Origin: Volutella citrinella
Lineage: Eukaryota; Ascomycota; Sordariomycetes; Hypocreales; Nectriaceae
Assembly: GCA_034401135.1 (NCBI GenBank)
Contig: JAWZSP010000008.1
Location: 2,604,001-2,668,000 of the forward strand
Reading direction: 5' to 3'
DNA: 64,000 nucleotides
The notes under the pieces were generated by a model, which saw only the letters and a list, made by a program, of their open reading frames with translations, ran no database searches and was not told the origin of the DNA. The position numbers were made by a program, and so were the translations under genes. Positions 3,910-42,146 of the stretch are shown piece after piece; the stretch's first letter is position 1, and each line of letters begins with the position of its first letter.

Positions 3910-3981
3910 ATGGCCGGGCGTAAGCATTGGATGGCCAAGACGGCCCTGGCGACCCTCGCCGTCTTGCCTCTGGCGGGCGCC
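3910..3981 (+). other. Signal peptide of the giant protein
   Basis: Residues 1-24. A short basic N-region (GRKHW, then K10) is followed by a hydrophobic core and a small-x-small site (A-G-A) before W25. It routes the whole product to the secretory pathway. Confidence 0.9.
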
Positions 3982-6900
3982 TGGAAGTTTCCCATCGACT
4001 TGGGAAAACACGAAAGCTGGAGGAACTTTTTGCGAACACCCGAACAACAACTCGACAACACATGCCCAACCGACGAAATCTGCATCGGAGGAACCTGCGG
4101 CCTGGCCTTGATCGGCATCGACCCACGAAATTGCGGAACAAAGGGCAACTCATGCGAGGCCGGCGAGCTTTGCATCACGGGGAAGTGCATCCCCCTCAGC
4201 ATTGGAACCGACGCCAGCAAGTGCGTCGACGGAAAGGCGTGTAAGCCTGGACAGTGGTGCAATGACGGCGAGTGCACTCCGATCCAGGTCGTCGCCAACT
4301 CGCTGCACTGTGGATCTACCGACACCGAATGCACCACGGGACAACTCTGCGTCAACGGAGTCTGTCTCGCCCTCAACACCACATCATCATCCGACCCCTC
4401 GAAATGCGGCCCAGACCGAGTAGCCTGCCGCCCGGGAAACTTCTGCCTTCGAGGCTCATGTACGCCGTTCGAAATCGGAACCGAAGCGCGCAAGTGCAAG
4501 ACCAACGCCGACTGTCCACTGAGCATCCCTTGCGAGAAGGGTGTCTGCCGCCCCTTCTCGGTCAGCCTCGACAGCCACCACTGCGGCGAGAAGCGCGAAC
4601 CGTGTGCCGGAGGCGAGCTGTGCATGGGCGGAAGATGCACCTCTCTGAACATTACGACCAACTCGGCAGCGTGCGGGCCCAACAAAGTCCGCTGCGAGCC
4701 CGGCACTGTCTGCGACACTAAGAAGTGCATCCCTCTTCACATCAGCACCTACTTGGAAGGATGCGGTGCCCGCGAGAAGCCGTGCGAGAAGGGCCAGTTC
4801 TGCGTGACTGGACTCTGCTTCAACTACACCCAGGGGCTTGGGTCTCCGGAAATGTTGGCTTGCAAGGCGGCTTCTGGGGACCGCATCGTTCAAAGCCCAC
4901 CCTCGGACAAATCAACGCCTGGCGGTGTCGGTGCTCCAGCTGGACAGCCTCCCTCTGGACAGATCCCCTCTGCACAGCAGCCCACAAAGGGAGAACCCCC
5001 GGGAGAACAGACCACAGGAACACAAGTTCACGCGGGAGGGAGCCAATCTGATGGCAAACTCGACTCACACGACCGCACTGAAGGACCCAACTGCAAGCGC
5101 GACTCTTCGTGTAGCTCAATGAACCGTTTACCAGCGGGCTGGAGCAAGGGTGCTCAAACCACCGGCGATATTCCTGTAGACGGCACTGGTTCTGCTTCCG
5201 GAAGAACCAAGTCTCCCACTGGATCAGATGGTAAGGCTGCTGGTCGCCCCGGTGCGACTGGTGGGTGGTCCTCGGAGGGCAGCAGCGGCAACGGCTCCGA
5301 CAGCATTCCCCCAGATGGCTGGGACTCTTCTGACGTTTTCTCCAACGGCCCCTTAGGTAAGTATCCGGGTGATGGTCCAACCGATGGTAACGGCGGCATC
5401 TCCGGTAGCAAGATGAAGTGGGCAGGTAGCGACGGCGGCGCTTCTGGAGTTACGCCACCCGCCGTCGAGTCTATCCGCTGCACCGTCAGTGGCGATTGCG
5501 AGGCTGGAAATGATTGCGTCAAGGGTGTCTGCAACCGCAAACCTGCTTTGCGGCTCTCGTGCCTCATTGACGTTCAGTGTGGACGAGGCGGCAAGTGCAA
5601 GGACGGCAGGTGTCACATGCCAGCCGGAGAGCCGGGAGCCACTCGGTGTCAGAAAGGCATCGAACAGTGCATCGCCGCGTTTCGGTCAAAGTGGTGTTTC
5701 CGAAGCTCGCAGTGCGGCGTCGGCAGGCTGTGCGTGGGAGGAAGGTGTATCGACGACGTCGACCCCAAGAGCTGTTCTCGGGACACCCAGTGTGGAACCG
5801 ATCGCATATGCGTCAATGGGAAGTGCCAGACGTCCGCCACCCCGACACAGTCCTGTCTTCTCGACATCCAGTGCGGCATTGGCCGTGTCTGCCGCAACGC
5901 ACGCTGCAGGAGCTTCAGCAACCCCGTCGCTGAGTGTTCTAGCAGTGGAGAATGCGGAACCGGTCGAATCTGCCAGGACGGAAAGTGTCGAGACAAGACC
6001 GACACATCCGTGGGCTGCACCTCGAACGATCAGTGCGGCTCTGGTCGTGAGTGCCGCAACGGGTCATGTCAACTCTCTGGCACGTCGTCCGCGGCCTGCT
6101 TCTTCAACTTCAACTGCGGCTTCGGTCGTGTCTGCCGCAACGGCCGGTGCCAGAGCATATCTGACCCGGCCGTTGCCTGTACCGTGAATCGCGAGTGTGG
6201 TATTGGTCGAGTCTGCCGCAATGGAAACTGTCGAGCTGCCGGAAACACCAACGTTGCCTGCACCGCTGATATCCAGTGCGGCATCGGTCGCGTCTGCCGC
6301 AACGGGCTCTGCCACATGGACATAGACATTCGCTGCGCCAGCAACAGCCAGTGTCCCACGGGTACCACCTGCAAGGGCGGATTGTGTGTTGCCATTGAGG
6401 GCCCGACCTCATCGTGCGAGGCAGACAAGGACTGCACCGGCAGTAAGGTCTGCCGCGACTTTGAATGCGTCGATCCCACTGAATCCAAGAGTTGCCTCTT
6501 TAGCGCCCAGTGCCCGACTGGCAGTCTCTGCCGCAACGGTGTGTGTGTCAAGGAGTCGACGGCAACTCGCTGCACCCTCGACAGCCAGTGTCCCGCTGGC
6601 AATGTCTGCCGCTTTGGCAGCTGCACCCCTGGGACGGGCACCTGCCTCAACAGCAACCAGTGCCCCTCGGGCAAGATCTGCCGCAACGGCGCCTGCGTCA
6701 CCGGCTCGACGCCAGCTGACGACAGCTGCACCACCGACAGCGAGTGTGGCGTGCGACGCATCTGCACGAACAACCAGTGCGTCGAGGGAACCCGACCTGT
6801 CCGCTGCATCAGCAACAGCCAGTGCGCAGTCGGGCAGAGATGCCTCAACGGAGAATGCAGCACCGCCAACACCACCAGCTGCATCGCCAACTCGCAGTGC

Positions 6901-9900
6901 GGCAACGGACGTGTCTGCGTCAACGGCAAGTGTGTCGACTTGACCCCCGAGACCCGGTGCGTCGCCAACGACGACTGCGGAGCTGGTAAGGTGTGTCGAA
7001 ATGGCGTGTGTACCGACTCGAACATCCCCTGCGTGCTCTCAGCGCAGTGCGGTGCTGGCAAGGTGTGCCGCAACGGCGCATGTGTCAACAGCACCAACCC
7101 CAACACGAGCTGCCAGCAGGATGCCCAGTGTCCCCCTGGATGGGTCTGCCGCGATGGAGTCTGCAAGGTCGAGGTCGATCCCTCTGCCGTTTGCGGCACC
7201 GACAGCGAGTGCTCATCCAGCCAGATCTGCCGCGACGGCTTCTGCGCCAATGTCGAATGCAAGACGGCGGCTCAGTGCGGAAATGGACGCGTCTGCCGCA
7301 ACAACACTTGTGTTGAAGACAACAACCCGTCGGGCTGCCTCTTCGACATCCAGTGCGCTTCTGGCTTCGTCTGCCGCAATCGCGCCTGTATCCCGGGCTG
7401 TCGATCCAGCCTCGAGTGTGGCAACGGGAAAATCTGCCGCAGCGGAAACTGCACCAGTGAGACCAGCGCTACTTCCTGTAGCAGTGACGACCAGTGCACC
7501 GGCGGCCTGGTCTGCCGCAACAACACTTGTGTTTCTCCTTCCTTGCCCGCTGGTGGATGCATTTTGGATACGCAGTGCACCGGTGGGCAGGTCTGTCGGA
7601 ACGGCACCTGTGTCTCGAGCACCACCACTGGCTGCAAGACTGACTCCGAGTGCGGTGCCAACCGAGCCTGTCGCGACGGGGCCTGCGTCAATATATTCTG
7701 TGACGGAGATGCAAACTGCGGCACTGGTCGAGTCTGCCGGGCCAGCATCTGCATTCCTGGTGGCTGTAACGGCAACGACGACTGCGGAACCAACCGAGTG
7801 TGCCGCGACAAGACTTGCGTTGCTGGTTGCCAAAACGACGCTGGCTGCATTCTGGGAAGCGTCTGCCAGAACGGCGCCTGCGTCCTGAGCGGTGGCTGCT
7901 CAGGCGATGGCCAGTGTTCCAGTGGTCAAATCTGCCAGAACAGGGTCTGCATCAGTGGCTGCCGAACTAACAGCCAGTGCACTGATGGCCGAGTCTGCCA
8001 GAATAGTGTCTGTGTGACTCCCGGCTCTGGAGACGACTGCACCAAGGACACCGAGTGTACCGGTGGCCGGATCTGCTTTAACAAGATCTGCATCCTCAAC
8101 GACTGCGGCAGCGATAGCGACTGTGGAAGCGATAGGATCTGTCGAGACCGGACCTGTGTGCCTGGCTGCACCGACAACTCGGGTTGCGGATCCAACCGCT
8201 TCTGTCGCGACGGAGTCTGTCGTTTCGGCTGTTCTGGTGATGGAGACTGTGGAACTGGCCGTGTGTGCCAGAGCAACAACTGCGTCAACAAGAACACCTC
8301 TACTACCGATGAATGTGAGATCGATGTTCAATGCGGGATCGGCAGACGCTGCAACAAAGAAGCCAAGAAGTGCGAGACCATTGTCACCCCCTCTGGTTGT
8401 CTGCTGGACGCTGATTGCGGTCCTGGCAAGCGATGCGACCTCAAGAGCAACCAGTGTGTGAACTCGACCACCACCGACCCGGACAAGTGCACATACAACA
8501 TCGAATGCGGGCTCAACAAGAATTGCGTTGATGGGAAGTGCCAGAACGGTACCAACGGTACCACCACCCCAACTGCGTGCCAGAAGGACGGAGACTGTGG
8601 CCCCGGAAGGCGATGCAACATCGACTCGAAGAACGGAAACAAGTGCGAGCTCATCACCAACCCCGACAACTGCCAATACGATATTGAGTGCGGCCTTGGA
8701 AAGAAGTGCGTAAACGAGACATGTCAGACTGGCACCAACACGACTACTGGCTGCCAGCAAGACTCCGACTGTGGCACGGGAAGACGCTGCAATTTAGATG
8801 GAAACAAGTGCGAGTTCGTCACCAACCCCGACAAGTGCAAATACGATATTGAGTGTGGCCTCGGAAAGAAATGTGTCAACGAGACGTGCCAGACTGGCAC
8901 TAACACGACTACTGGCTGCCAGCAAGACTCTGATTGCGGGGCAGGACGACGCTGCAACCTAGATGGAAACAAGTGCGAGTTTGTCACCAACCCCGACAAG
9001 TGTCAATACGATATTGAGTGTGGCGTTGCAAAAAAGTGCGTCAACGAGACGTGCCAGACCACCGTCACCCCCTCTGGATGCAAGGGCAATGAGGGCTGCC
9101 CCATTGGAAAGATCTGCAAGGACTCCAACTGCGTGGATGCCACCTCGACTACATGCGGCTCCAACTCCCCCGCTCCCGGTGATTGTGGCACTGGTTACAC
9201 TTGCAAGGATGGCAAGTGTACACAGGACAGTTCAGGTTGCACCCAGGACTCGGACTGTGGTGGTAATGGGAGCACCTGCAACAAGCTGCTCAGTGTCTGC
9301 ATTCCGCCAACGAGCAACCCCCAGTGCAACAACAGTACTAAGCCTTGCACCGGCGGCCTGGTTTGCAACTTAGCGGGCCAATGTGGAATTAACCCCGACC
9401 TGGGATCATGCTCAGGCACTGGTCCTTGTGCAGAGAATTTCGAGTGCAACCCGGTTCTCAACATCTGCGTACCAAAGCCCAAGACCAAATGCACCAAGGA
9501 CAGCGACTGCCTCTTGCCGCTCTTCGAGTGCAAGGGCAATGGTACTTGTATTGTCAAGTCAAAATGCCAAAACAACGGCGGTTGCCCCGAAGGTTATAAC
9601 TGCGACCCTATTACGGGCCTCTGCTCTCCCAAGCAAGAGATTCGTTGCACATTCGGAGGAACCGGATCGGCTGGATGTAGCACTGGATACTCTTGCAATG
9701 CCTTGGGTGTCTGCGAGAAAGACCCTGAGGCCCAATGCAGCGATACCAAGAAGTGTCCCCCTGGCCTCAAATGCAACTCCGGCAAGTGCGAGATCGATAC
9801 TTCACTGGAGTGCAGTCCCGCCAAGAAGTGCAGCGATGGAAAGGTCTGCTCCAATGACTTCAAGTGTATGCCCGACTCCGGTCGAGACTGCGACGACACC

Positions 9901-33900: not shown

Positions 33901-36900
33901 AGTGCCTTCTTGAAATGTCCCAACGGAGGAGTTTGTACGAATGGAGTGTGTGGAAAGTGTTCTCTGAGTTCCGACTGCTCGGGAGGTGTTTGTGTCGACG
34001 GCGCCTGCACCCCCTGTTCCAGCAGCGTGGCCTGCCCCGATGGTGGTGTCTGTACGCTAAGCGGCACCTGTGTCCCGTGCGGCGGCCTCAACCCGTGCCC
34101 AGGCGGCGGCGTCTGTACTGGCGGCAAGTGTGCTGCCTGCAGCTCTTCCAACCCTTGCACTGGCGGACTCGTCTGCAACGGAGGGTCATGCCAGGCCTGC
34201 TCCAGCAGCCTCCCGTGCCCCAATGGCGGAGTCTGCAATCTGGGCACTTGTGCCCCATGCGGCGACTTCAACGCATGCCCAAACAACCAGGTCTGCACCA
34301 AAGGAGCCTGTGCACCATGCAGCTCTTCCAACCCATGCACTGGCGGCAAGGTGTGCTCGAGCGGCTCTTGTGTCGCCTGCTCTAGCCTTGCCGGCAGCGG
34401 CTTGACCTGTCCCAATGGCGGAGTCTGTACGCTGGGTGCTTGTGCTCCTTGCAGCGATCTCAATGCGTGCCCGAACAACCAGGTCTGCAACAACGGAGCC
34501 TGTGCTCCCTGCAGCGAAACGAATGCATGCTCTGGTGGCAAGGTGTGTTCGGGCGGTTCCTGCGTCGCCTGCTCCAGCCTTGCTGGCAGCGGCCTGACGT
34601 GCCCCAACGGCGGTGTCTGTGTCTTGGGCTCCTGTACCAAGTGCAGCGCTCTCACATCCTGCCCCAACGGTGGTGTCTGCACCAACGGGGTCTGCGCTCC
34701 TTGCAGCGGGACCAATGCATGCCCCAACGGCCAGGTCTGCTCCAATGGCGCCTGTTCCGCATGCTCGAGCATCTCTGGCAGCGGCCTGCTATGTCCCAAC
34801 GGTGGAGTTTGCACCTTTGGCGGATCATGTGCTACCTGCTCTGACCTCAACCCGTGCCCCAATGGAGGCATCTGTAGCAATGGTGCCTGCTCTGCCTGCA
34901 GCGCCACCAACCTCTGTCCCAACGGCCAGGTCTGCACCAACGGATCCTGTGGCCCCTGTTCCGATACTTCACAGTGTCCCAATGGTGGTGTCTGCAGCGG
35001 CCTTCTTGTCAAGGCATGTCGTGCCTGTGCGAGCGATTCCGAGTGCCTGAACGGAGGCGTCTGCAACAAGGGCGTCTGCGGACCTTGCAGCTCAACCAAC
35101 ACCTGCTCGGGTGGTCTTGTCTGCTCCAGCGGATCTTGCGGCCCTTGCTCGACCAGCTCCCAGTGTCCCAACGGCGGTGTATGTGGCACTATCACAAAGA
35201 CATGCCGTTCTTGCATGAACGACGGCGAGTGCCCCAACGGCGGCGTCTGCAAGAACGGCGTCTGCGGAACTTGCAGCTCATCCAGCCCCTGCTCCGGCGG
35301 CCTGGTCTGCAACAGCGGCGGATCTTGCGTCGGCTGTTCCTCGACGGTGGCCTGCCCGAACGGAGGCGTCTGCACCAACGGAGTGTGTGCCGCTTGTTCA
35401 CTTACAAACCCATGCCCGAACGGCGGCGTCTGCTCTGGGGGCTCCTGTGCACCCTGCAGCTCAACCAACGCCTGCCCTGCCAGCGCGCCTGTCTGCAACA
35501 GCGGTTCATGCGCCAAGTGTACCGCCAACTCCCAGTGTCCCAACGGCGGAGTCTGCACCACTCTCACCGGCACCTGTGGCATCTGCCTCAGCAACACCAA
35601 CTGCGATTCTGGCCAGGCTTGTATCAACGGCAGATGCGGCGCCTGCAGCGCAAACAGCGATTGCGGTACCGGCCAATCCTGCAATAACGGCGTATGCGGA
35701 AAATGTTCTGCCAACGGCGACTGTGACAATGGCCAGGTCTGCAACAACGGAAACTGCCAGCTCTGTACCGACAACTCGCAGTGCCTCGGCGGCCAGGTCT
35801 GTCTGGGCATCCCAGGCCTCACCTCACGCTGCCAGGCCTGCGGAAGCAGCTCGCAGTGCAGTAACGGGCAGATCTGCCAGGGTGGCGCGTGCCAGAGCTG
35901 CAACAGCAACTCGCAGTGCTCTGGCGGACAGGTGTGCAAGGACGGCGGATGCACGACGTGCTCCAGCAGCACCGACTGCTCCAACGGCCAGGTCTGCAAC
36001 GCATTCAAGCTCTGCGCGGCGTGCAATTCTCTGACCAACCCATGCTCCGGCGGCCTCGTGTGCAACAGCGCCGGTGCCTGCGCCAGCTGTTCGGGCAATG
36101 GGCAGTGCGGCGCTGGACAGGCCTGTGTGGACGGACTCTGTGGCAAATGCTCCAACAACGGCCAATGTGGAAGTGGACAGGCCTGCAAGAGCGGCGTCTG
36201 CACCATCTGCACCAGCGCCAGCGACTGCACCGCAGGACAGATCTGCTCATTCGGTTCGTGCCGCGGCTGCAGCTCCTCTTCGGACTGTCCCGCCACGCAA
36301 GCCTGCATCAGCAGCTCTTGCAGCAAGTGTGTCAACAACGACGACTGCAACTCGGGCTTCGGCAACTCGGGCCTGGCGTGTGTCGATGGCGCCTGCAAGG
36401 GCTGCACCAGCAACAAGCAGTGCAACCAGGGCCAGGTGTGTCTGGCCCTTACCAGCCGATGCGGCACCTGTTCGTCCAACGGCGACTGCGACGCAGGCCA
36501 GGTCTGCCAAGGAGGCACATGCCAGGCGTGTTCCAGCACGACGCAGTGCTGGAGCGGCAAGGTGTGTGTCGGCGGCAGCTGCTCCAGCTGCACATCCAAC
36601 GACCAATGCGGCTCCAACGCTGTGTGTCGAGGCGGCACATGTCAACAGTGCACTGCCAACAACCAGTGCTCCACGGCCGGCGAGGTCTGTCTCAGCACCG
36701 GCGGCTGCGGCAAATGCGCCAGTCAGGGCCAGTGTGATTCGGGCCAGGCCTGTCTCAGCACCGGGCTCTGTGGGAAGTGCAGCAAGGGCTCCGATTGTCC
36801 GGGCACCCAGGGCTGCAACAACGGCGTGTGCGGAACCTGCAACGACAACTCGCAATGCGACTCGGGCCTCTGCACCGGCGGCGTCTGCGGCAGCTGCCTC

Positions 36901-37500
36901 GCCTCCACCAACTGCCCCGCGGGCCTGGCTTGTAGGGGCGGCAAGTGTACGACCTGTACGCAGAGCTCGGAATGCAGAAGCGGCCAATCCTGTAAGAACG
37001 GCGTGTGCGGCGCCTGCAACGGCGCCAACGATTGCCCAACGGGCCAGATCTGCAAGGGCGGCGCCTGCTCCGGCTGCTCATTCAGCGACGAGTGTCCTCC
37101 CACACAGGCCTGCGGCGTACTCGCTGGGCTTTTCGGGGGAACATGTGGCACCTGCGGCATCATAGGCAGCGGAGAAACCGGGCTCGCCGCCGTCTGCCAA
37201 GCCGGCAGGACGTGTCGCAACGGCATCTGCGGCGTCAGCTGCCTCAGTGCCGGTGACTGCAAAGAGAGTGGCTACACTTGCCAGCCCGTCCTCACCTCGC
37301 CCCCGGTCATCATCGCCTCGCCCGGCTCTTGCGCACCCAAGTGTACCTCGTTGGCCGATTGCGCCAACGGGCTCTTCACTGCCTGCGGCAAGGACGGTGT
37401 CTGCAAAGGAAGACAGTGCACAGTAGACGCCGACTGCAAGTTGCAGCTGTCGTGCCTCTTCAAGACATGTACCTGCTCCCTGGGTCTCTGCTATTCGTAG
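3910..37500 (+). CDS. Giant secreted cysteine-repeat protein, 11,196 aa
   Basis: One uninterrupted, intronless frame of 33.6 kb. The ATG at 3910 has A at -3 and G at +4 and opens a clear signal peptide (residues 1-24: basic start, hydrophobic core ALATLAVLPLAG, likely cleavage after AGA). The mature chain is a serial array of a four-cysteine module, C-x5-C-x5-C-x4/5-C, separated by linkers of 2 to about 11 residues. I estimate 400-430 modules, about 1,700 cysteines and a mass above 1.1 MDa; these are not exact counts. Only residues about 304-523 form a non-repeat Gly/Ser/Pro/Thr linker. Module blocks change consensus along the chain (listed separately). The spacing resembles Dickkopf-N-like or EB-type cysteine modules; this is by eye, not a search. 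Many N-x-S/T sequons suggest glycosylation. The C-terminus (CTCSLGLCYS) lacks a GPI signal or TM segment, so a soluble or matrix-bound secreted protein is expected. No catalytic domain is visible. Function unknown; adhesive, matrix or decoy roles are hypotheses. Confidence 0.93.
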   Translation: MAGRKHWMAKTALATLAVLPLAGAWKFPIDLGKHESWRNFLRTPEQQLDNTCPTDEICIGGTCGLALIGIDPRNCGTKGNSCEAGELCITGKCIPLSIGTDASKCVDGKACKPGQWCNDGECTPIQVVANSLHCGSTDTECTTGQLCVNGVCLALNTTSSSDPSKCGPDRVACRPGNFCLRGSCTPFEIGTEARKCKTNADCPLSIPCEKGVCRPFSVSLDSHHCGEKREPCAGGELCMGGRCTSLNITTNSAACGPNKVRCEPGTVCDTKKCIPLHISTYLEGCGAREKPCEKGQFCVTGLCFNYTQGLGSPEMLACKAASGDRIVQSPPSDKSTPGGVGAPAGQPPSGQIPSAQQPTKGEPPGEQTTGTQVHAGGSQSDGKLDSHDRTEGPNCKRDSSCSSMNRLPAGWSKGAQTTGDIPVDGTGSASGRTKSPTGSDGKAAGRPGATGGWSSEGSSGNGSDSIPPDGWDSSDVFSNGPLGKYPGDGPTDGNGGISGSKMKWAGSDGGASGVTPPAVESIRCTVSGDCEAGNDCVKGVCNRKPALRLSCLIDVQCGRGGKCKDGRCHMPAGEPGATRCQKGIEQCIAAFRSKWCFRSSQCGVGRLCVGGRCIDDVDPKSCSRDTQCGTDRICVNGKCQTSATPTQSCLLDIQCGIGRVCRNARCRSFSNPVAECSSSGECGTGRICQDGKCRDKTDTSVGCTSNDQCGSGRECRNGSCQLSGTSSAACFFNFNCGFGRVCRNGRCQSISDPAVACTVNRECGIGRVCRNGNCRAAGNTNVACTADIQCGIGRVCRNGLCHMDIDIRCASNSQCPTGTTCKGGLCVAIEGPTSSCEADKDCTGSKVCRDFECVDPTESKSCLFSAQCPTGSLCRNGVCVKESTATRCTLDSQCPAGNVCRFGSCTPGTGTCLNSNQCPSGKICRNGACVTGSTPADDSCTTDSECGVRRICTNNQCVEGTRPVRCISNSQCAVGQRCLNGECSTANTTSCIANSQCGNGRVCVNGKCVDLTPETRCVANDDCGAGKVCRNGVCTDSNIPCVLSAQCGAGKVCRNGACVNSTNPNTSCQQDAQCPPGWVCRDGVCKVEVDPSAVCGTDSECSSSQICRDGFCANVECKTAAQCGNGRVCRNNTCVEDNNPSGCLFDIQCASGFVCRNRACIPGCRSSLECGNGKICRSGNCTSETSATSCSSDDQCTGGLVCRNNTCVSPSLPAGGCILDTQCTGGQVCRNGTCVSSTTTGCKTDSECGANRACRDGACVNIFCDGDANCGTGRVCRASICIPGGCNGNDDCGTNRVCRDKTCVAGCQNDAGCILGSVCQNGACVLSGGCSGDGQCSSGQICQNRVCISGCRTNSQCTDGRVCQNSVCVTPGSGDDCTKDTECTGGRICFNKICILNDCGSDSDCGSDRICRDRTCVPGCTDNSGCGSNRFCRDGVCRFGCSGDGDCGTGRVCQSNNCVNKNTSTTDECEIDVQCGIGRRCNKEAKKCETIVTPSGCLLDADCGPGKRCDLKSNQCVNSTTTDPDKCTYNIECGLNKNCVDGKCQNGTNGTTTPTACQKDGDCGPGRRCNIDSKNGNKCELITNPDNCQYDIECGLGKKCVNETCQTGTNTTTGCQQDSDCGTGRRCNLDGNKCEFVTNPDKCKYDIECGLGKKCVNETCQTGTNTTTGCQQDSDCGAGRRCNLDGNKCEFVTNPDKCQYDIECGVAKKCVNETCQTTVTPSGCKGNEGCPIGKICKDSNCVDATSTTCGSNSPAPGDCGTGYTCKDGKCTQDSSGCTQDSDCGGNGSTCNKLLSVCIPPTSNPQCNNSTKPCTGGLVCNLAGQCGINPDLGSCSGTGPCAENFECNPVLNICVPKPKTKCTKDSDCLLPLFECKGNGTCIVKSKCQNNGGCPEGYNCDPITGLCSPKQEIRCTFGGTGSAGCSTGYSCNALGVCEKDPEAQCSDTKKCPPGLKCNSGKCEIDTSLECSPAKKCSDGKVCSNDFKCMPDSGRDCDDTTNPCQQGYVCSNGKCEQAAKPECDENIKCATGFTCDLSKKKCAFDTKLECDQKNPCKQAGYSCNFLLGICQQDSKPECDENIKCITGFTCDLSKKKCVFDIKLECDQKTPCKQDGYSCNYLLGICQQDSTPECDENIKCATGFNCDLSKKKCVFIAGSKCDDQIKCPQGYICDKVLGVCEKDFRPQCDDQTACPDGYTCNKSQGVCEVTVKPECDEKNACLAGFVCDLDAKKCVFTQGSGCSDQKPCPKGYNCNKSTSKCEISTGADCTTILCPTGFTCNQTTKKCEGTNTTPECDDGKACPDGFKCNLGTKKCDIVTGIECDEIKKCPNSLTCNLDKKQCELTTSTDCTTTPCPIGFACNQGTKKCEVSTGPKCDGQNPCKQDGYTCVLGVCIPPLQCGPNRKCDTGFSCTGGLCVQDLEIACDDAKKCDAGYTCTAKICVVDPTLQCNDNKKCDKGYTCKSNVCVRDTVLSCDASGKCPDPLVCNKDTKICQPATGTECSDTKKCNGGSTCQNGVCVPTVGIECSDTKKCDGGLVCVAGRCGPSTGLECSESKKCQGDLVCKNGLCVPKDLTCGPKGECARGYTCGPAKICIPDTNVPCNKTADCDRGYVCGSSGICTQDPKIPCKASDPKPCDDGFTCSDAGVCIPKIIPQCQNDDNCLLGFKCDKTKGCVPNIELQCGTGKPPCVKGLKCGPLGICILDPNVECIDDQGCEDGDMCTPAGKCVINPDLDCSGNKKCKTGFTCKKPENICIPDPDQKCNNDDACQSGWKCSILGLCIENNDLKCDKDDDCDPGNKCGMLGFCEPDLNLKCTNATKCNDGFKCGPLGYCIPEKPCNDDAGCGKNFKCTSLGACVPDPGLQCIDDDSCGAGRKCGPKGVCIVDSGPKCTKATEAKDCKDGQKCSILGFCVDDNSCDTNADCADKFVCGVTKECVPEIFVQCTADANCTTGFVCSALNKCVPKGISCKNATDCLDGFTCNLFGACVPKIGRDCNKDSECQQGYFCTPLTGKCFPRTIGCAGSDANCRENYKCNAFNICVPKAIPYCDEDVDCAEGLTCSAAGLCLPPTDMPCNGPQDCAPGTKCGADKTCVPDDILNECAKDSECADGQECSALLKVCIPKNVLGCSDTNKCPSKFVCNNAKICVPEVDVVCTKADTSQCPDGYICSSLGACVPKGIDNFTCDPTATADSGKRCPSGYVCSAPGVCLPQIDLTCGITKSCPSKYYCAGGKCLPDLGFQCGQNRACPDHYVCGLAGFCVPKSTITCDSGVLCPQGYTCKGSICLVDPAVTCGDGKTCSDGKLCNAQNICVPKGIDLSCSAQKPCPTGSFCSTAKVCLPDALNVQCGPGKNCPAGYNCKGTICIPDLGFQCNAQTPCPDGYNCVNVNANGGTSGGYCIPKGLDISCNANKPCPPGLNCGRGNICVPKDLDLSCSASKPCQAGYKCQGTICIPDVQLKCTAQNRCPDGFVCGLGGVCLPDDLNLGCSDTNKCPTGFFCGPAKTCVPQQLDLTCSEIKRCPTAYTCQGTICIPDVGICNGDISCPNNFVCGPGGICLPNNLDLGCANKPCPDNYFCSAAKVCVPRQVDLTCSATKPCPAKYTCKGLVCLPDIGIDCTNVACPASFICGKGGLCIPGDLDVDCTDQKPCPAGLTCSPGNVCLPQNNITCDANKKCPTGTVCTALGLCVPENLGVQCNAAKPCPTGFKCSLGGLCLPDISSVKCNILKPCGNGFTCSPAGICIPTSTGLECNANKLCRAGYTCSSGGVCVPNGLSPQCTGDGDCSRGYSCFAGVCFPDIFKKCKDRGDCLRGQICPMAIGRCLPSLIPTCESSRDCINPLACRFGFCVPTIMSFLCIEGNDCAKGYRCFGGYCFPKLVNFCKADYQCPGALKCRNGICLPSLSPLCKSDSQCSNGLTCRLGLCVPKPQLICKTKSDCAPNSSCYGGICYPDLIGQCQKNGDCAAPLVCKSGYCLPDILPGCKSDSQCADPLVCKLGLCVPNLLNKCSNDNECGDGYYCGLGDRVCLPRLVPACKTNADCTGATACTLGHCLPQALPKCDSRQGCQDGFTCTKNGFCVPNIVPTCSAAAPCAEGFTCSAGGFCVPKTLPTCKKDTDCSAPLTCSKAGICLPKLLNTCQADEECGSGFECGPGGICRPKPIGSCKKSAECASGFKCGALGFCVPKLLPACSNDKPCGDGYICSVAGVCVLDLFPTCNADKTCDDGYVCGLAGICVPQVVQACKNDDCEMGWACGAAGFCVPDIKNVTCKTNGDCASGFNCSSLGVCLPDSNLPGGCRSDADCKTGFNCTDIVDDVGVCLPDIKIPGTCRADVDCKNGFSCTKIIGGVGVCSPKVDIEGSCSSDGDCSEGFNCSSITNGLGICLPNLTPTKCTKKVDCPQGFACGIGGICVIDLLGSCDNDGDCKNNYTCGLAGVCVPPALDTCKSDADCGNKKTCALGGICIPKILDSCTKDDDCKPDFACGLGNLCVPKIILTCSTTNSTNNTCGDGKICGPLGICIPEVKLPGSCKVDGDCRKGFSCGSLGFCVIDALGGCQKDSDCGAGFSCGPLGFCSPSIGKRCAAKADCSPDQDCNALGFCVTRLLDTCEQASDCSPGYICTVAGLCLPGLANSCTNGKDANSGNRTICGAGFVCGPLGVCVPDVLDRCTNKADCGQNKTCNTLLGLCVPKIPGTCSAASDCEDGFACGLGGFCVPKLLPECTTNDDCNKTAICNKLLGSCVPPIVPLCAKNADCSPGLVCLGSGLCAPDLISGCKKDTDCGTGLQCTAAGVCLPKLNITCDTDDDCGKGFECAGAANGSGLCLPDLGCDTDGDCLSGFICNKAGICILKTALTCNVTDDCAPGLVCSTAGLCTPKIEPLCKQNADCGARAKCTAAGVCIPDLSCTPGSDGSGNSSSCGDGFKCSGLGVCLPDLGLGCKTDAECTGSSTCGPLKICIPNIPNLNLTCKSTADCKDGLMCSKLGVCIIDLGQECLNSSGCNPGSICNTAGFCVPDLNITCSKTEDCNNGFVCTNAGICVVETGLTCMDDSNCKKGFTCTDAGLCLPDFSCKDNSDCLQGFVCGGNKVCTIDLGLTCGGDKDCKNGFVCNKIGSSERGVCTPDLKLACNVNTDCSNGYKCSSLGICLVQSSPTCATSDDCQSGLVCNTAGFCLPDLGLLCSSNDDCKKGYKCGTGGLCVIDLSCNSTADCNDGFVCGSSGYCIPDLGLNCKTDQDCKPGFNCSSLNVCILDLGLTCNADADCKGNGTCSAAKVCIPDTKLGCNKPEDCLSGFTCSDLGICTVDLSCATKGCDPGYECGLLGLCVPKLNLTCTQKSDCQDGFFCSSGGVCVLSIPGVTCQKPEDCDSGFTCNAAGLCAPKVNLTCAGPSDCQNGLVCSKAGVCVVDVGLACNTTQDCNSGFKCSKDGLCLPSLSCDNDSDCLGGFKCSSSGICTLSGVSCNKNDDCLGGFKCGKAGVCVLDLGLACNTTDDCDSGYICRSTLGGLTSLCTPKGLACNDQSDCRDGLVCSSAGVCIIDLGLTCDKDGADSCKPGTTCGPTGTCIPSGITCKSNDDCKPGFFCNNNGTGTGIGTGLDTGICVVDLNVTCKADSDCGSGFNCTALGFCVVDLGLTCLNTGNCKDGFVCGPGGVCLPGGVACKKATDCNDGFTCSDAGLCIPKGLTCNGDDDCKNGTICSAAKLCIAKGLVCEKPEDCLQGFTCNEKGICVPSGILCQGNDDCNNGTICGDAGLCIPKGLTCKGKDDCNNGTVCSPAGVCIPDGITCKTTADCTEGNVCSPAGLCITKGLLCKEDNDCSNNFTCTPAGLCAPRGILCRNDTDCKKNYTCGPLGACLPDGLGCSTKEDCKDGFSCSALGTCLPDINLTCTGPDDCKSNFTCSDLGLCIPGGVLCKGNGDCSNNFTCTDAGLCIPPGIQCKVDGDCNKGYNCNALGVCLAGGLTCKTSRDCLGNLTCSDAGLCVPDGITCSAPSECRNGFTCSEAGVCIPKGVLCKGPDDCLANFTCSAAGACIASGVTCSQSSDCKPGLSCSPLGLCVPGGVICKEDTDCFNNFTCTDGGLCAPGAITCNATEDCTRGFTCSAAGLCVPGGGLLCKNSTDCQSGFKCSALGICLASSITCDTDDDCLKGFECNDGGLCTPGSLACKGDGDCKNGTSCGPLGLCVANGLLCKEDKDCRQGYSCSDAGLCVLDGLLCSSLDDCKKGTTCSDAGLCIPSGITCTSKVDCLPGFKCSDAGICVADSGLFCKTSNDCSPTFNCSSAGVCVPGGVLCKNSSDCSNGLTCSGLGFCVPDANIFCSKPEDCAGNTTCGPLGLCVPKGITCKTKADCSDGYSCTAAGVCLLESNVLCQKPGDCKANFTCSNAGLCVPKGLTCTVNDDCNPGYNCSALGACVIDAPFFCKGPEDCAKGLACSSAGVCLPSGLTCGNDTDCNAGYKCSALGVCSIDLGLTCQNGVGCREGFTCSSSDSSPGICTPSGITCKNASDCQEGYTCANAGPDTTGLCVIDIGLKCSEKKDCGKGFTCSPSGLCVVDLGLNCNATADCRDGLKCNARGLCVLDLGLTCSKDEDCKQGFKCTDTDPGLCIPDGITCDSPDQCQSGFTCSQAGFCVVASALSCQNNAECKLPGFICGSKGFCVPGGLQCSPASSNGTAAKGCGEGQVCSAAGICVPDLGITCKVPDDCGKGLICNEAGVCTPDLGLSCKDTSECRENFICNSLNICVPKIQITCDDSTCANGTVCSKTLNVCVPDLGLVCNTTEECKGGFICSSSGFCVPDIGLVCNTSQDCKQGFTCNDARLCVADVGLTCKDTSDCKGGFICSPLNVCVPNLGINCGKPEDCKDGLVCNPFGLCVPDLGLSCRNGTACKDGFTCSPLGLCLPSIGLKCSKDDDCNKGFVCGDNKLCTLDLSLNCKKDDDCKGSLICSKSGVCVVDLGLGCNNDTDCASGFKCSSNNVCVLDLENKCRDNSDCANNTICGASGLCIPKVDLTCQVNDDCQKGFNCGPFNLCIPTLGLTCTNGTGCNSGFVCSDSGLCVPDLKISCNATKGCASGFVCSSANICVIDLGITCKNTSDCNQGYTCTDGGLCTPDLNLTCTTSANCSKGFICSQAGLCVADLGLFCKTAADCKDGFNCSAAGICYPQLGVNCQNTGECSNGFLCSAAGVCVPDLGFTCGGNNTCGAGFVCSKFGVCIPDLGGLLCKDDTECKNGTICGAGGVCIIDLGLTCSTAGQCKYGYTCNEAGFCVPDIRLRCNATSGCQSGYECNPLGLCVPSGILCAGDQGCSEGYTCTSLGVCAVDPSLVCKDPSDCKKGYRCSALGLCLPDLGLTCQTSEQCQKGYACTGGFCAPDLGLTCRSNADCKVPGFKCGSLNVCVLDFDLACNTTDDCKAGFTCKEPGFCAPSLNLACSKDDDCSKGFKCGTGGRCTLDLRLSCKSAGDCQQGFVCGAAGFCVPNLGPQCNTTADGQSEGCDTGYVCSAAGFCIPDFGLKCETDANCRKGQKCSAAGICVVNVGILCKSDTDCLTGLVCDASGLCLPDLNLGCKNNSDCTGGQICSRESGLCIPDTSLNCKVDDDCKTGRVCSAFGICVSDVGIRCKTRADCFPGFECNPSNRCVIDIIPTCSRTEDCAQEGYVCGPLGICTPKLNILCSKDDDCKTNGTICSEAGACIPDLGLTCKADTDCKSGFKCTSGLCVPRVLPLCSNDSQCGNGFFCSNAGLCLPNIVPTCANDSDCASNQTCQGLVCVPKLLPKCTTNADCSKGYICADVLKTCVIDLFPPQCKNNTDCDPNFTCSSAGICIADLGLTCKVDDDCKKGFNCSSLGVCTKNPLACSNDSDCDKGSSCSIAGLCLPDLFPKCTSDNDCTRGKSCNSFGICVADAVPTCSVDSDCSPGYVCFDTGICVIDIFPKPCLTSSDCKDNRECIAFTCQKPTTPTGQACLFDSNCPAGQNCVNLFCQATATPNRRPCLIDGNCPKGQGCINLFCENSTTPSNKPCLLNSNCDDGQACVNFACQNSTTTERPCLIDDNCPAGQSCVGLVCKDGKAPAGGPCLVDQNCPIGQACVRLTCQNSTSSTARPCLINANCNEGESCVNLFCQKSTSATARPCLIGTNCPTGQTCLNFLCQNSTAPVSKPCAVNSNCDDGQVCLNFVCQKPTSTGQSCTIDATCPSGQVCVNSTCQDSATAPTGRSCALDLNCPLGQACVNYTCQDSTIPTAQRCLVDLNCPSRQRCLNFVCRDAPETPKGCLVDENCPGGQSCLFFVCQNSTSPGGKPCAFDSSCPAGQICQSFTCRNASTSGKACVTSATCDKGQTCQNFKCMDSATSPTSQPCVVDLGCPTGQTCVDFRCQNSTTPTGQRCLVDATCPRNQTCQDFVCKDSDVTPSGRPCLTDLNCPSGQRCVDLFCQRKPTTPTNRPCVLDDNCPEGQSCVNLFCQNSTSIPTGRPCLLDSGCPAGQKCVSLLCRDSNTTSPATRPCLIDDNCPEGQSCVNLACQNSTTNVKGRPCTLDSGCDKGESCINFRCRNSTSISAGGFCLLGFSCPAGQSCVNLVCQNYTNPGGQTCHFDLNCPQGKACQNYTCQDSSNLPTYKPCLIDENCPAGQSCRNLVCQNSTAPGGQSCLVTLNCPKGQTCQNFRCQNATAGEPCQFDFNCGIGQICVNQTCKSGTSTSPRSCLFPSDCKSGQDCVNLVCQNSAGSRACLFDFTCPIGQRCMERKCQDATTPGGPKTCLFNTDCPKGQSCQNLVCQNGTAPQACVATANCPAGQACINFQCEDASTPGPKSCVADRDCDDGKTCKNLVCQEAVGPAACLLDNNCPSGQTCQNFFCQNATGPSACAIDANCKPGETCVGFKCQKSTGPSPCLLDSNCGTGQKCVNFVCQNSTDSKSCITNSNCAANETCIGFKCQDSPTTQPLACISNGDCGTNQTCVLFQCKDKPTTGPGACLTKADCSSGQNCVNFRCQDAKPTATPCKGSADCSAAGGPLCALGLCVCLNGFCETNPNVTTCINTAGCRSGETCQSGVCRKSLSCGSAKECFLGLDLCLFGTLCICVKGFCALGGAPSVQCKLDSDCGDSSTCILGICAPKLIKTCTSDANCTGSNVCNLGFCGPKIIPDCLFDSGCQQGQICSGGRCVAGCTEGSCGAGQKCDLGRCVPQSLPTCDNDAECGSGKICNGINICVPGCRQTSDCTGENQKCTANLCLTNILPDCTLDLGCPSGQICQAGKCIPGCNDSSNCTKGQVCRSGRCGVCLANSECSDGQACILGSCQACRSKSDCGLGGQACVNGKCGDCTGSSDCEGGICNNGVCGLCTSSSQCPNGGVCTLGTCGKCVNSAQCPGGGICTDGVCAPCSDTNKCPTGQICTGGSCGLCSDSTQCPDGGVCGALGLCTPCILSAQCPNGGVCNKGKCAKCTSTSDCSGGLVCEAGKCSSCSSSLQCPNGGVCNSLTSTCVACGVANPCPNNEVCTAGACAPCSRTNACPGGQVCTNGACGACSSSNPCPNGGVCNSLTGGCAACSIINPCPDGQVCTNGGCGPCGPDTPCTGGQVCSNGACTACSDSSQCPNRGVCNALSKTCVPCGLLNPCPNGGVCSNGQCFPCGADKACPSSAPVCTNGACGPCTDDNPCENGGVCSTGFGICSACSAINPCPNGQVCTTGSCAPCSGSNPCPSSSPICTAGSCGKCSDTAPCPNGAICNKLLGTCSACSAFNSCPNGQVCAKGACTACGSSNPCPSDSPICTAGSCGKCSDTAACPDGGVCNTLFGTCSACSLTNPCPKGGVCTNGACAPCSGSNSCPGNAPICTAGSCGKCSDTAACPNGQVCNTLFGTCSACSLTNPCPKGGVCTNGVCAPCSDTNACPSSAPICNGGSCDKCSGKAPCPNGAICNTLTGTCSACSSTNQCPSGGVCTNGACAPCNSTNACPTGQVCNAGSCGPCSSSVPCPNGGVCALGVCTQCSALTPCPTGQVCANGACGPCNDAAKCTGGKVCADGTCTDCSANVPCPNGGVCTGGSCAACSAFLKCPNGGVCTNGVCGKCSLSSDCSGGVCVDGACTPCSSSVACPDGGVCTLSGTCVPCGGLNPCPGGGVCTGGKCAACSSSNPCTGGLVCNGGSCQACSSSLPCPNGGVCNLGTCAPCGDFNACPNNQVCTKGACAPCSSSNPCTGGKVCSSGSCVACSSLAGSGLTCPNGGVCTLGACAPCSDLNACPNNQVCNNGACAPCSETNACSGGKVCSGGSCVACSSLAGSGLTCPNGGVCVLGSCTKCSALTSCPNGGVCTNGVCAPCSGTNACPNGQVCSNGACSACSSISGSGLLCPNGGVCTFGGSCATCSDLNPCPNGGICSNGACSACSATNLCPNGQVCTNGSCGPCSDTSQCPNGGVCSGLLVKACRACASDSECLNGGVCNKGVCGPCSSTNTCSGGLVCSSGSCGPCSTSSQCPNGGVCGTITKTCRSCMNDGECPNGGVCKNGVCGTCSSSSPCSGGLVCNSGGSCVGCSSTVACPNGGVCTNGVCAACSLTNPCPNGGVCSGGSCAPCSSTNACPASAPVCNSGSCAKCTANSQCPNGGVCTTLTGTCGICLSNTNCDSGQACINGRCGACSANSDCGTGQSCNNGVCGKCSANGDCDNGQVCNNGNCQLCTDNSQCLGGQVCLGIPGLTSRCQACGSSSQCSNGQICQGGACQSCNSNSQCSGGQVCKDGGCTTCSSSTDCSNGQVCNAFKLCAACNSLTNPCSGGLVCNSAGACASCSGNGQCGAGQACVDGLCGKCSNNGQCGSGQACKSGVCTICTSASDCTAGQICSFGSCRGCSSSSDCPATQACISSSCSKCVNNDDCNSGFGNSGLACVDGACKGCTSNKQCNQGQVCLALTSRCGTCSSNGDCDAGQVCQGGTCQACSSTTQCWSGKVCVGGSCSSCTSNDQCGSNAVCRGGTCQQCTANNQCSTAGEVCLSTGGCGKCASQGQCDSGQACLSTGLCGKCSKGSDCPGTQGCNNGVCGTCNDNSQCDSGLCTGGVCGSCLASTNCPAGLACRGGKCTTCTQSSECRSGQSCKNGVCGACNGANDCPTGQICKGGACSGCSFSDECPPTQACGVLAGLFGGTCGTCGIIGSGETGLAAVCQAGRTCRNGICGVSCLSAGDCKESGYTCQPVLTSPPVIIASPGSCAPKCTSLADCANGLFTACGKDGVCKGRQCTVDADCKLQLSCLFKTCTCSLGLCYS
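4063..4818 (+). repeat. Block A: N-terminal cysteine modules
   Basis: Residues about 52-303. Eight to nine modules of the form C-x(5-6)-C-x5-C-x4-C, with longer linkers than later blocks, typically starting IPLSIGTDA or similar and ending in KC or RC. The first module is incomplete. Sequences are diverged at DNA level, suggesting an old part of the array. Confidence 0.8.
4819..5478 (+). other. Low-complexity linker inside the giant protein
   Basis: Residues about 304-523, rich in Gly, Ser, Pro, Thr and Asp and with very few cysteines. It is the only long break in the cysteine array and probably a flexible, possibly O-glycosylated hinge between block A and the rest. A perfect GTAAGT donor at 5357 with a CAG at 5423-5425 would define an in-frame 69-bp intron; no good branch site is seen, so I leave it as coding. 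Confidence 0.75.
5479..8312 (+). repeat. Block B: 37 Arg-rich four-Cys modules
   Basis: I counted 37 consecutive modules with consensus C-x5-C-G-x-G-R-V-C-R-N-G-x-C, spaced 20-28 residues apart. The third cysteine is usually preceded by RV or RI and followed by RNG or RDG. Linkers become shorter toward the end (three residues such as IPG). Confidence 0.85.
8662..9060 (+). repeat. 165-nt tandem repeat, about 2.4 copies
   Basis: The NPD motif recurs with its Asp codon at 8665, 8830 and 8995, exactly 165 nt (55 residues, two modules) apart. The first two units are complete and the third is truncated after NETCQT. Most differences are single bases, many synonymous, consistent with recent unequal crossing-over or slippage. 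Confidence 0.9.
9961..10375 (+). repeat. Second 165-nt tandem repeat
   Basis: PECDENIKC units start at 9961, 10126 and 10291, again exactly 165 nt apart. The third unit ends early after KKKCVF. The sequence is unrelated to the array at 8662 apart from the cysteine frame, so the same two-module unit length was amplified twice. Confidence 0.9.
11081..15210 (+). repeat. Block D: C-P-x-G-Y-x-C / CVPK modules
   Basis: Residues about 2390-3767. Modules take the form C-x5-C-P/D-x-G-F/Y-x-C-x(4-5)-G-x-C-V/I-P-K/D, with linkers such as GLDLSC or QLDLTC. About 26-28 residues per module; boundaries of this block are approximate. Confidence 0.7.
15211..27600 (+). repeat. Block E: longest block, D-C-x-x-G-F modules with DLGLTC linkers
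   Basis: Residues about 3768-7897, an estimated 150-160 modules of about 26 residues. Consensus LTCKxDxDCKxGFxCSxxGLCVPDLG: an acidic D-D or S-D before the second cysteine, an aromatic before the third, and five residues in the last loop. Sequons occur as NLTC, NITC and NFTC. A few modules carry insertions, such as the Gly/Thr-rich one near 20608-20645. Confidence 0.8.
27601..30770 (+). repeat. Block F: N-C-P-x-G-Q modules with QNST linkers
   Basis: Residues about 7898-8954, roughly 38-40 modules of about 28 residues. The last loop shortens from five to four residues, the core becomes NCPxGQxCVN, and the linker becomes (Q/K/E)NSTxPTGRP. The repeated NST sequon predicts an N-glycan between many modules. 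Confidence 0.8.
30771..31611 (+). repeat. Block G: transitional, irregular modules
   Basis: Residues about 8955-9234. Spacing is irregular, with some modules gaining extra cysteines and LGLC/ICVKGFC stretches that echo the very C-terminus of the protein. Confidence 0.55.
31612..37110 (+). repeat. Block H: compact 20-21-residue modules (PCPNGGVC)
   Basis: Residues about 9235-11067, an estimated 87 modules. Consensus C-S-x-x-N-P-C-P-N-G-G-V-C-T-N-G-x-C-A-P, so only two residues join successive modules. This is the most compact packing in the protein and contains a 189-nt higher-order repeat. Toward the end (from about 35580) modules turn to QC-x-x-GQ-x-C variants. Confidence 0.85.
32590..33723 (+). 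repeat. 189-nt higher-order repeat (63 residues, three modules)
   Basis: Equivalent codons before the C-(S/G)-x-x-N-P-C motif fall at 32590, 32779, 32968, 33157, 33346 and 33535, each exactly 189 nt apart. Units contain CTAGSCGKCSDT, PNG-x-VCN-x-L-x-GTCSAC and a PCPKGGVC module. The units starting 33157 and 33346 are the most alike. A related 192-nt pair (SGSGLTCPNGG) lies at 34381 and 34573. Confidence 0.9.
37111..37497 (+). other. C-terminal domain of the giant protein
   Basis: Last ~129 residues. The module rhythm loosens: a Gly-rich insert near 37165, a hydrophobic Pro-rich insert near 37285-37320, and a final CTCSLGLCYS. There is no hydrophobic tail, GPI attachment signal, dibasic sorting site or TM helix. 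Confidence 0.7.
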
Positions 37501-40750: not shown

Positions 40751-41707
40751 ATGGGTCTCACTGCTCGTCTCGCCCTCGCCGGCCTCGCCCTCGGCGTCGC
40801 CTCCGCCAACCCCATGGGCAACGGCACCGTCTATGTCACCGAGGTCGTCAACGTCCTAACCACCTACTGCCCGGCCGCCACCACCCTCACCCAGGGCGGC
40901 AAGACCTACACCGTCACCGAGGCCACCACCCTGACCATCACCGACTGCCCCTGCACCATCACCCGGCCCTCCGGCCCCACCACCACCGGCCCCGTCAAGG
41001 ACGCCTGCGCCGAGGGCTGCATGAACGTCTACAACAAGTGCCGCACCGCCAAGGGCGCCAACATGTCCTACTGCGCTTCCCAGTACGCCGACTGCCTGGG
41101 CTTCAACCCCTTCGGCGGCGACGGCTCCAACAAGCCCGTCACTGCCTGCTCGCAGAAGCCCCCCGCCGGCACCCCCCCCGTCAAGGACATCGTCTACACC
41201 ACCGAGGTCGTCACCGCCATCACCACCTACTGCCCTGAGCCCACCACCCTCGTCTACAACAACAGGACCGTCCACGTCACCCAGCCCGGCACCGTCACCG
41301 TCACCGACTGCCCCTGCACCATCCGCCACCCCGTGCCCTCGTCCGTCCCTGCTCCCACCTGCGCCGAGATGTGCAACGACGCCTACAACAAGTGCCGCAC
41401 TGCCAAGGGCGCCAACATGTCCTACTGCGCTTCCCAGTACGCCAGCTGCCTCGGCTACAACCCCTTTGGCAACGATGGCACCTTCGTCACCCCCACTGCT
41501 TGCCATGCTGGCGGCAACCCTCCCGCTGGCGAGCCCACGAAGCCCGCTGGCCAGCCTCCTGCTCAGCCTACCCAGCCCGGCCAGGGCGGCAAGCCCTCGA
41601 CCACCGGCGCCCCTGCTGGTACTCCCGCTCCCCCCGTCCCTGCCGGTGCCGGCCGGGTTGCTCCCGCCGGTGTTGCTCTGGCCCTCGGTGCCCTCGCTCT
41701 TCTGTAA
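40751..41707 (+). CDS. GPI-anchored cell-wall protein (Sed1/Ccg-6-like)
   Basis: 318-residue intronless gene. Residues 1-19 are a signal peptide (LALAGLALGVASA). Two copies follow of a unit made of VTEVV-x-x-x-TTYCP-x-x-TT-(I/L), a VTDCPCT segment and a cysteine domain containing NKCRTAKGANMSYCASQYA; this last stretch is identical in both copies. A Pro/Gly/Thr-rich stalk and a C-terminal hydrophobic tail (VAPAGVALALGALALL) preceded by small residues indicate GPI anchoring. The TTYCP-x-x-TT motif is known from fungal Sed1-like and clock-controlled Ccg-6 wall glycoproteins, so a structural role in the wall is likely. TATA box and Kozak context (CACAATGG) support the start and high expression. 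Naming beyond family level is not justified. Confidence 0.88.
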   Translation: MGLTARLALAGLALGVASANPMGNGTVYVTEVVNVLTTYCPAATTLTQGGKTYTVTEATTLTITDCPCTITRPSGPTTTGPVKDACAEGCMNVYNKCRTAKGANMSYCASQYADCLGFNPFGGDGSNKPVTACSQKPPAGTPPVKDIVYTTEVVTAITTYCPEPTTLVYNNRTVHVTQPGTVTVTDCPCTIRHPVPSSVPAPTCAEMCNDAYNKCRTAKGANMSYCASQYASCLGYNPFGNDGTFVTPTACHAGGNPPAGEPTKPAGQPPAQPTQPGQGGKPSTTGAPAGTPAPPVPAGAGRVAPAGVALALGALALL

Positions 41708-42146
41708 GAGTTGAGTTGGAAGACGACATGAAACCTGCGAGACATCCTTTGATGGATGCACAGTGGTAGATAATTGTTAATAATTGACATGTTTTCAGCC
41801 ACATGTTCCGTTCTGGTGTACAAAACTTTGGATATTATAGACTATGAATCAAATATGGATCAACAATGATGCTTTGAATGCAACCTTTTGTGTTTCTGGA
41901 AGATGAGAGATGTGAACGTAGCCACTGGTGCGTAGTTAATGTGCCCAACGTATTAAACATGATGGGGTTGGTATAGAGATGGTAAGAAACTGGTAAATGT
42001 TGATGTAGGGAGTACGATGTTGGCTAGTATATATTGCTATAAAATCAAATACGTGTATGTTCATAGCCGTAAATGTTACCCACAACGCCTGTCAAACCCA
42101 GGACTGAACAAAAAGTCGGCGATCCATCAGCTCTCCATACATATAT
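41708..42146. other. Convergent 3' interval
   Basis: AT-rich DNA between the stop of the wall-protein gene and the stop of the minus-strand metallopeptidase gene. It presumably contains both 3' UTRs and terminators. No gene seen. Confidence 0.6.

Follow-up and report, generated by a model that had tools for sequence, protein, structure and literature searches.

Analysing a 64,000-nucleotide window from the fungus Volutella citrinella (contig JAWZSP010000008.1 of assembly GCA_034401135.1, positions 2,604,001 to 2,668,000 of the forward strand), we describe a giant gene whose uninterrupted reading frame encodes 11,196 residues, built of hundreds of small four-cysteine modules that are arranged in distinct zones behind a conserved N-terminal block (N-block). 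We lean towards reading its product as a secreted, intact and disulfide-stapled filament at the surface of the fungus or in its extracellular matrix, a role that emerges as the most probable because of the likeness of the chain to the eggshell membrane protein CREMP, the slime-mould spore coat protein SP75 and the giant matrix protein Dumpy.

The initial annotation had placed the frame at positions 3910..37500, and both coordinates and length proved exact. The frame translates without internal stop, an outcome with a chance of about 10^-165 at its base composition, and the other five frames of the locus carry 92 to 466 stops. From stop to stop it measures 11200 residues, so that a stop codon lies shortly upstream of the ATG, and third-position GC exceeds that of the other two positions in all 12 bins of 1000 codons. 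An antisense open frame of 1003 residues (33627-36638, minus strand) within zone III of the chain is probably a by-product of the codon pattern and of these GC-rich third positions. Intron-like motifs are scarce inside the giant frame, with 2 in sense orientation (0.60 per 10 kb) and a single one in antisense (0.30 per 10 kb), whereas the neighbouring 26.5 kb (37.5-64 kb) carries 3.02 per 10 kb on one strand and 4.53 on the other. The gene is likely intronless, as had been claimed, the motif density being a fit to that claim and not its proof; the several short introns claimed for the multi-exon neighbours were approached through this density and through one neighbour (42092-44539) that is spread over several frames. 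We infer that the giant is secreted from its N-terminus, which resembles a signal peptide by eye, and a hydrophobic N-terminal stretch also opens its two paralogues presented below. The size of the giant is no fungal record, as a 689-species survey of fungal proteins names a 2546-kDa non-ribosomal peptide synthase (PMC7988114).

Segmentation by dynamic programming, trained on the giant of the window (G), on its paralogues A (9,408 residues) and B (1,651 residues) and on a related protein of Dactylonectria (D), divided G into 429 modules taking up 1716 of its 1734 cysteines, which themselves represent 15.5% of all residues. The same procedure yielded 274 modules in A (1096/1158 cysteines), 53 in B (212/232) and 44 in D (176/194). 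Linker included, a module extends over ~26 residues with C-x5-C-x5-C-x4 or x5-C as the commonest spacing and a last gap of 4-6 residues; 75 of the 429 modules of G contain a non-canonical gap. Because this segmentation is fitted, we also counted canonical units without fitting and obtained 355 disjoint C-x5-C-x5-C-x4..6-C units, versus 201.1 (standard deviation, sd, 5.9; at most 220 over 1000 shuffles) for a shuffled gap order and 1.4 for cysteines placed at random. The 400-430 modules estimated in the initial annotation agree with the fitted count. A genome-wide scan for the codon pattern of spaced cysteines was uninformative, with 3729 forward matches vs 2507 for the reversed control.

Pfam scans of five pieces, together covering the whole giant, placed the module by score in DUF7107 (PF23416), a family of unknown function, the scores being 331.9, 102.1, 204.8 and 50.8 bits for four of them (cut-off 24.6) and 19.6 bits, below the cut-off, for residues 1801-3800. 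The likeness to Dickkopf-N and EB claimed earlier held above the cut-offs in residues 1-1800 (Dickkopf_N, 82 bits, cut-off 25; EB, PF01683, 30.0 bits, cut-off 24.3) and nowhere else among the five pieces: Dickkopf_N reached 23.8 bits, below its cut-off, in residues 3801-5600 and went unlisted in the remaining three, and EB was unlisted in the other four. The family proper to the module is PF23416. Stig1 (PF04885) was likewise restricted to residues 1-1800 (29.2 bits, cut-off 24.1), and a Stig1 match is present in the N-block of G, A and B. These scans of the whole length listed no colipase-like second cysteine-rich domain (CRD2) of Dickkopf and, as had been stated, no catalytic domain. The NCBIfam scan, which covered residues 1-1800 and 8801-11196, matched TIGR04201 (Myxo_Cys_RPT) with 53.5 bits in the former (cut-off 25), but stayed below that cut-off, at 21.8 bits, in the latter.

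The ratio of nonsynonymous to synonymous substitution rates (dN/dS) was measured on four tandem arrays chosen by Tandem Repeats Finder (TRF) on DNA, and ranged over 0.06-0.15, or 0.10-0.26 without cysteine codons (Table 1). The protein sequence is therefore constrained beyond its cysteines, in agreement with the strong selection proposed at the outset. These arrays replaced a set of 15 pairs chosen by amino-acid identity (0.09-0.34 in 13 of them, two saturated), whose choice was biased. The existence of recent tandem copies would suit an array that is neutral or self-expanding and has no selected function, or an artefact of the assembly. This becomes a very improbable explanation in view of the constraint, of a frame devoid of stops across its entire length, of the TRF result that just four longer arrays occur in the frame while the remaining modules have diverged, and of a second giant that shares a matching head and tail on another contig.

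This second giant was recovered by searching the V. citrinella genome (45.1 Mb, 26 contigs) for PF23416, which returned at least 67 matches (150 of 329 candidates scored) distributed in three frames, namely G, a frame of 9,422 residues on contig 1 and one of 1,668 residues on contig 7. Counted from their ATG, the last two correspond to A and B, both with a G-like head and spacer, and the N-block of B used as query gave eight matches in the genome, every one inside the three frames. The head of A found a sole match among 558 candidates of the protein database, P0002 (our D), a 1,872-residue protein of Dactylonectria macrodidyma (Nectriaceae, Hypocreales) named DUF7107. The chain is thus no isolated instance, and the DUF7107 members seen here comprise two giants, one protein of 1,651 residues and one of 1,872. 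P0002 turns cysteine-poor and of another kind from about residue 1470, and its gene model is perhaps fused. In the six pairwise comparisons among G, A, B and D, the N-blocks share 42-48% identity and, judged from these alignments, no other part of the family is as well conserved. A tree of the four N-blocks was unresolved. In the stretch following the spacer, the B-D pair scored 131 bits, versus 48.5-67.8 for the other five pairs, so that B is probably the orthologue of D; the duplications are probably older than the split from Dactylonectria.

Two further searches of the protein database were made. A 10,000-residue piece, of which the first 5000 residues served as query, gave one match among 205 candidates, P0001, a 7,894-residue metagenomic protein of mixed domains, which was rejected as a relative of the whole chain (28% identity over 7% of the query). 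B had no match among 7976 scored candidates, probably as its Gly/Ser spacer filled the word list. The three database searches are uninformative on the frequency of the family in fungi or on other giants. More distant relatives of the N-block (24-31% identity) occur at 14 loci in Myxococcota, Deltaproteobacteria and one unnamed bacterium; modules of fungal spacing are present at six of these loci (8-25 each) and at none of the other eight. At these loci (L045-L058), metagenome-assembled genomes of Myxococcota and Deltaproteobacteria encode the N-block relatives as long Stig1-like arrays of cysteine modules.

Furthermore, the chain does not consist of one module repeated throughout, as had been claimed, but is zoned, with an N-block, a cysteine-poor spacer and several module zones whose limits in G and A are approximate (Table 1). 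The order recurs in A, where an N-block, a cysteine-free stretch of 877 residues together with three more long ones, a zone II (120 modules, linker 7) and a zone III (63 modules, linker 2) were recognized. Long cysteine-free interruptions are present in the array of A and none occur in that of G; between residues 2189 and 4478 of A (G000:C1:6204411-6232635), the array is broken by Gly/Thr/Ala/Ser-rich stretches of 477, 540 and 396 residues without cysteine. Linkers of three residues or fewer account for 92/93 zone III gaps in G vs 8/335 elsewhere, and for 51/63 vs 2/210 in A. Compared over core residues, zone III of G scores a mean of 11.4 against zone III of A, vs 4.6 and 4.55 against the other zones of A; zone I of G also reaches 8.4 against zone III of A. 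A specific likeness of residues between the two zones II, suggested by a score that included linkers, was not borne out by core residues alone (0.46). The matching compact tails of two anciently separated giants suggest that this zoning matters functionally.

N-glycosylation sequons exceed expectation in zone II of both giants (G, 86 vs 40.2 expected; A, 72 vs 33.7), the reversed-motif control giving 48 vs 40.2 and 33 vs 33.1, respectively, and the zone II stalk is probably N-glycosylated at the predicted sites. In zone III, sequons are depleted (2 vs 27.5 in G; 11 vs 20.9 in A). Since G-x-S/T is likewise depleted there (30 vs 57.5 in G; 26 vs 51.7 in A), a template effect may account for it.

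Dibasic KR/RR sites are not in excess in any of the three proteins (G, 12 vs 18.3 expected, sd 4.0; A, 4 vs 19.4, sd 4.0; B, 2 vs 2.7), and the chain is therefore probably kept uncut. The repeated, inhibitor-sized and disulfide-rich mini-domains would also suit a polyprotein precursor, cut in a Kex2-like manner into hundreds of mini-knot peptides. Such processing is hard to reconcile with these counts, with the complete lack of dibasic sites in the 120 modules of zone II of A and with the two-residue linkers of zone III, too short for a spacer, and we regard it as extremely unlikely. The cysteine content over so long a chain, together with the squash-inhibitor-like modules, could alternatively indicate a sink or shield, with cystines and short loops acting in the medium as a redox, metal or protease decoy. 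The defining residue of squash inhibitors is a basic P1, and Lys or Arg is rare in the linkers of G, where the highest frequency is 0.19 for a position of the 161 seven-residue linkers and 0.16 for the 90 two-residue ones, with position 9 of 20 ten-residue linkers (0.40) as the exception; this rarity speaks against a squash-type inhibitor. As the third disulfide of squash inhibitors is missing as well, and as ordered zones and a constraint on non-cysteine codons exceed the needs of a decoy, this second alternative appears quite unlikely.

The main rival to a filament is a surface adhesin or recognition protein, in which the N-block would bind a partner (host, prey, another hypha or polysaccharide) and the array would be a mere stalk keeping the block at a distance from the cell. 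The conservation of the N-block and its structural model, with a predicted template modelling score (pTM) of 0.66, agree with this reading, as does a sub-threshold match (80.2 bits, cut-off 750) between seven stretches of residues 8801-11196 (zone III) and the cysteine-rich part of TraA, an outer membrane exchange protein of bacteria that serves in cell-surface recognition. However, no known binding fold was found for the N-block: its model had no Foldseek match with an E of 0.001 or lower, either in the PDB or among the viral models of BFVD, and its profile retrieved no sequence from the PDB with an E of up to 1. Nor was a membrane anchor seen in the chain, and we consider an adhesin of this kind rather improbable.

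Table 1. Features of the giant reading frame (window coordinates)
Feature	Position	Strand	Remarks
Whole reading frame	3910..37500	+	11,196 codons plus stop; 1135.6 kDa, pI 4.93
Signal peptide, probable	3910..3981	+	~residues 1-24; judged by eye from translation
N-terminal block (N-block)	4060..4821	+	residues 51-304, 8 assigned modules; Stig1-like
Gly/Ser/Pro-rich spacer	4822..5469	+	residues 305-520; 1.4% Cys
Zone I	5470..9909	+	57 modules, median linker 8
Recent tandem duplication, 165-bp unit	8635..9059	+	dN/dS 0.06; 0.10 without Cys codons
Zone II	9910..27159	+	217 modules, median linker 7; sequon excess
Recent tandem duplication, 165-bp unit	9957..10362	+	dN/dS 0.08; 0.11 without Cys codons
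Zone Ib	27160..31599	+	54 modules, median linker 10; sequons 32 vs ~17 expected
Zone III	31600..37497	+	93 modules, linker 2; 19.1% Cys, 3.6% K+R
Tandem duplication, 189-bp unit	32772..33466	+	dN/dS 0.15; 0.26 without Cys codons
Tandem duplication, 192-bp unit	34203..34722	+	dN/dS 0.15; 0.23 without Cys codons
C-terminal cap, extra CxC and Cys	37417..37497	+	like the endings of both paralogues (by eye)

Downstream of the giant, positions 40751-41707 (plus strand) encode a secreted-looking protein with two copies of a cysteine motif and a Pro/Ala-rich hydrophobic end, which had no Pfam match at E 0.01 and is reminiscent of clock-controlled glycosylphosphatidylinositol (GPI) wall proteins of the ccg-6 type. 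The multi-exon gene at 42092-44539 (minus strand) has a signal-peptide-like start, a metalloprotease-type HEIMH motif and a Fungal_lectin_2 match (28.3 bits, cut-off 26.5). The secreted or wall-bound look of these neighbours at 40.7-44.5 kb may offer a faint context for an extracellular role of the giant. A tandem repeat of 13 bp (3.8 copies) lies at 49995-50043.

Returning to the filament, the chain could be pictured as a conserved head, the N-block, perhaps contacting a partner or the wall, followed by a long zone II stalk with seven-residue linkers, probably N-glycosylated, and by a compact zone III tail which, being richer in cysteine, poor in charge and closely linked, may self-associate or be cross-linked. 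With an assumed length of ~2 nm per bead, the stretched chain would reach ~0.8-0.9 micrometre. In literature searches, with subscription journals mostly outside the scope, we found no paper on DUF7107 or on fungal proteins of Dickkopf-N type, and broader searches returned none describing such a protein in its title or the beginning of its abstract. New here are the connection between DUF7107 and beads of the DPY/Min-23 type, the zoned build of 429 modules and the occurrence of two giants in a single genome. For this family, they suggest a fold and a role that can be put to the test.

The fold of the module brings the giant close to several known systems. AlphaFold modelled six modules as a short helix and two short strands each (mean predicted local distance difference test, pLDDT, 74), and a single modelled module superposed on the squash inhibitor EETI-II at 0.7 A over 23 columns with 43% identity and weak E-values, and on the two-disulfide intermediate of MCoTI-II at 1.1 A. 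In the PDB, the module profile ranked the Dumpy DPY module first (1oig, E 0.0018), with scytovirin, CREMP and EETI-II also in the top ranks; residues 1552-1800 had no phmmer match in the PDB at E 1. Knottins were absent from the VIA-align list, which we do not count as evidence against the fold. From these resemblances, we infer that each module folds as a minimal cystine-stabilised beta-sheet bead in which cysteine 1 pairs with 3 and cysteine 2 with 4, a pairing deduced from the spacing common to Dkk4 and EETI-II.

Among these systems, the squash inhibitors EETI-II and MCoTI have their last four cysteines spaced as in the giant; however, they are single peptides with a third disulfide and an inhibitory loop that are missing from its tandem four-cysteine modules. 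Their family (PF00299) matched 2 of 15 six-module stretches, with a best E of 0.00083, the first member scoring 13.7 bits (cut-off 22). Each bead would in effect be a natural Min-23, the designed 23-residue cut of EETI-II that keeps two disulfides and folds alone (PMC6259850). In the first cysteine-rich domain (CRD1) of Dkk4, the disulfides C73-C85 and C79-C90 correspond to the 1-3/2-4 pattern (PMC6078440), and spacing and disulfides both fit the giant's module, although a Dickkopf protein combines one CRD1 with a colipase-like CRD2 whereas the giant strings together 429 single modules. Dumpy, a giant matrix protein of Drosophila with DPY modules of 21 residues, shares with the giant the use of a short four-cysteine module in a very large extracellular chain that carries a proline-rich insert (PMC2930355). 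Its DPY modules alternate with >300 EGF repeats; by contrast, Pfam scans along the full fungal chain listed no EGF family at E 1, and Dumpy_DPY itself scored 16.3 bits vs a cut-off of 27. CREMP, whose four-cysteine modules form the insoluble fibres of eggshell membranes and which resembles SP75 (PMC3068167), offers with that protein the precedent of long four-cysteine module runs in disulfide-rich fibres or coats, as in the module run of the giant. Its spacing is C-X4-C-X5-C-X8-C (PMC3068167) vs C-x5-C-x5-C-x4/5-C here, and its profile match (9pgb) was weak (E 0.0056, no single stretch passing alone).

Giant modular disulfide proteins are known from animal matrices, from eggshell membranes and, at smaller size, from slime-mould spore coats. 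If the filament reading is true, this would be a surface material of a new kind for fungi, a chain of >1 megadalton whose repeated unit ranks among the smallest folds with two disulfides. It would also offer a natural case in which to ask how tandem mini-knots avoid mispairing when hundreds of them fold in one chain. More tentatively, as a proposal that we find attractive without yet favouring it, the giant could be a fungal counterpart of Dumpy and CREMP: a sub-micrometre to micrometre fibre made from one polypeptide of hundreds of Min-23-like beads, whose head would serve for binding and whose tail would cross-link, with a glycosylated stalk between them, the two giants being specialised for different structures of the same fungus.
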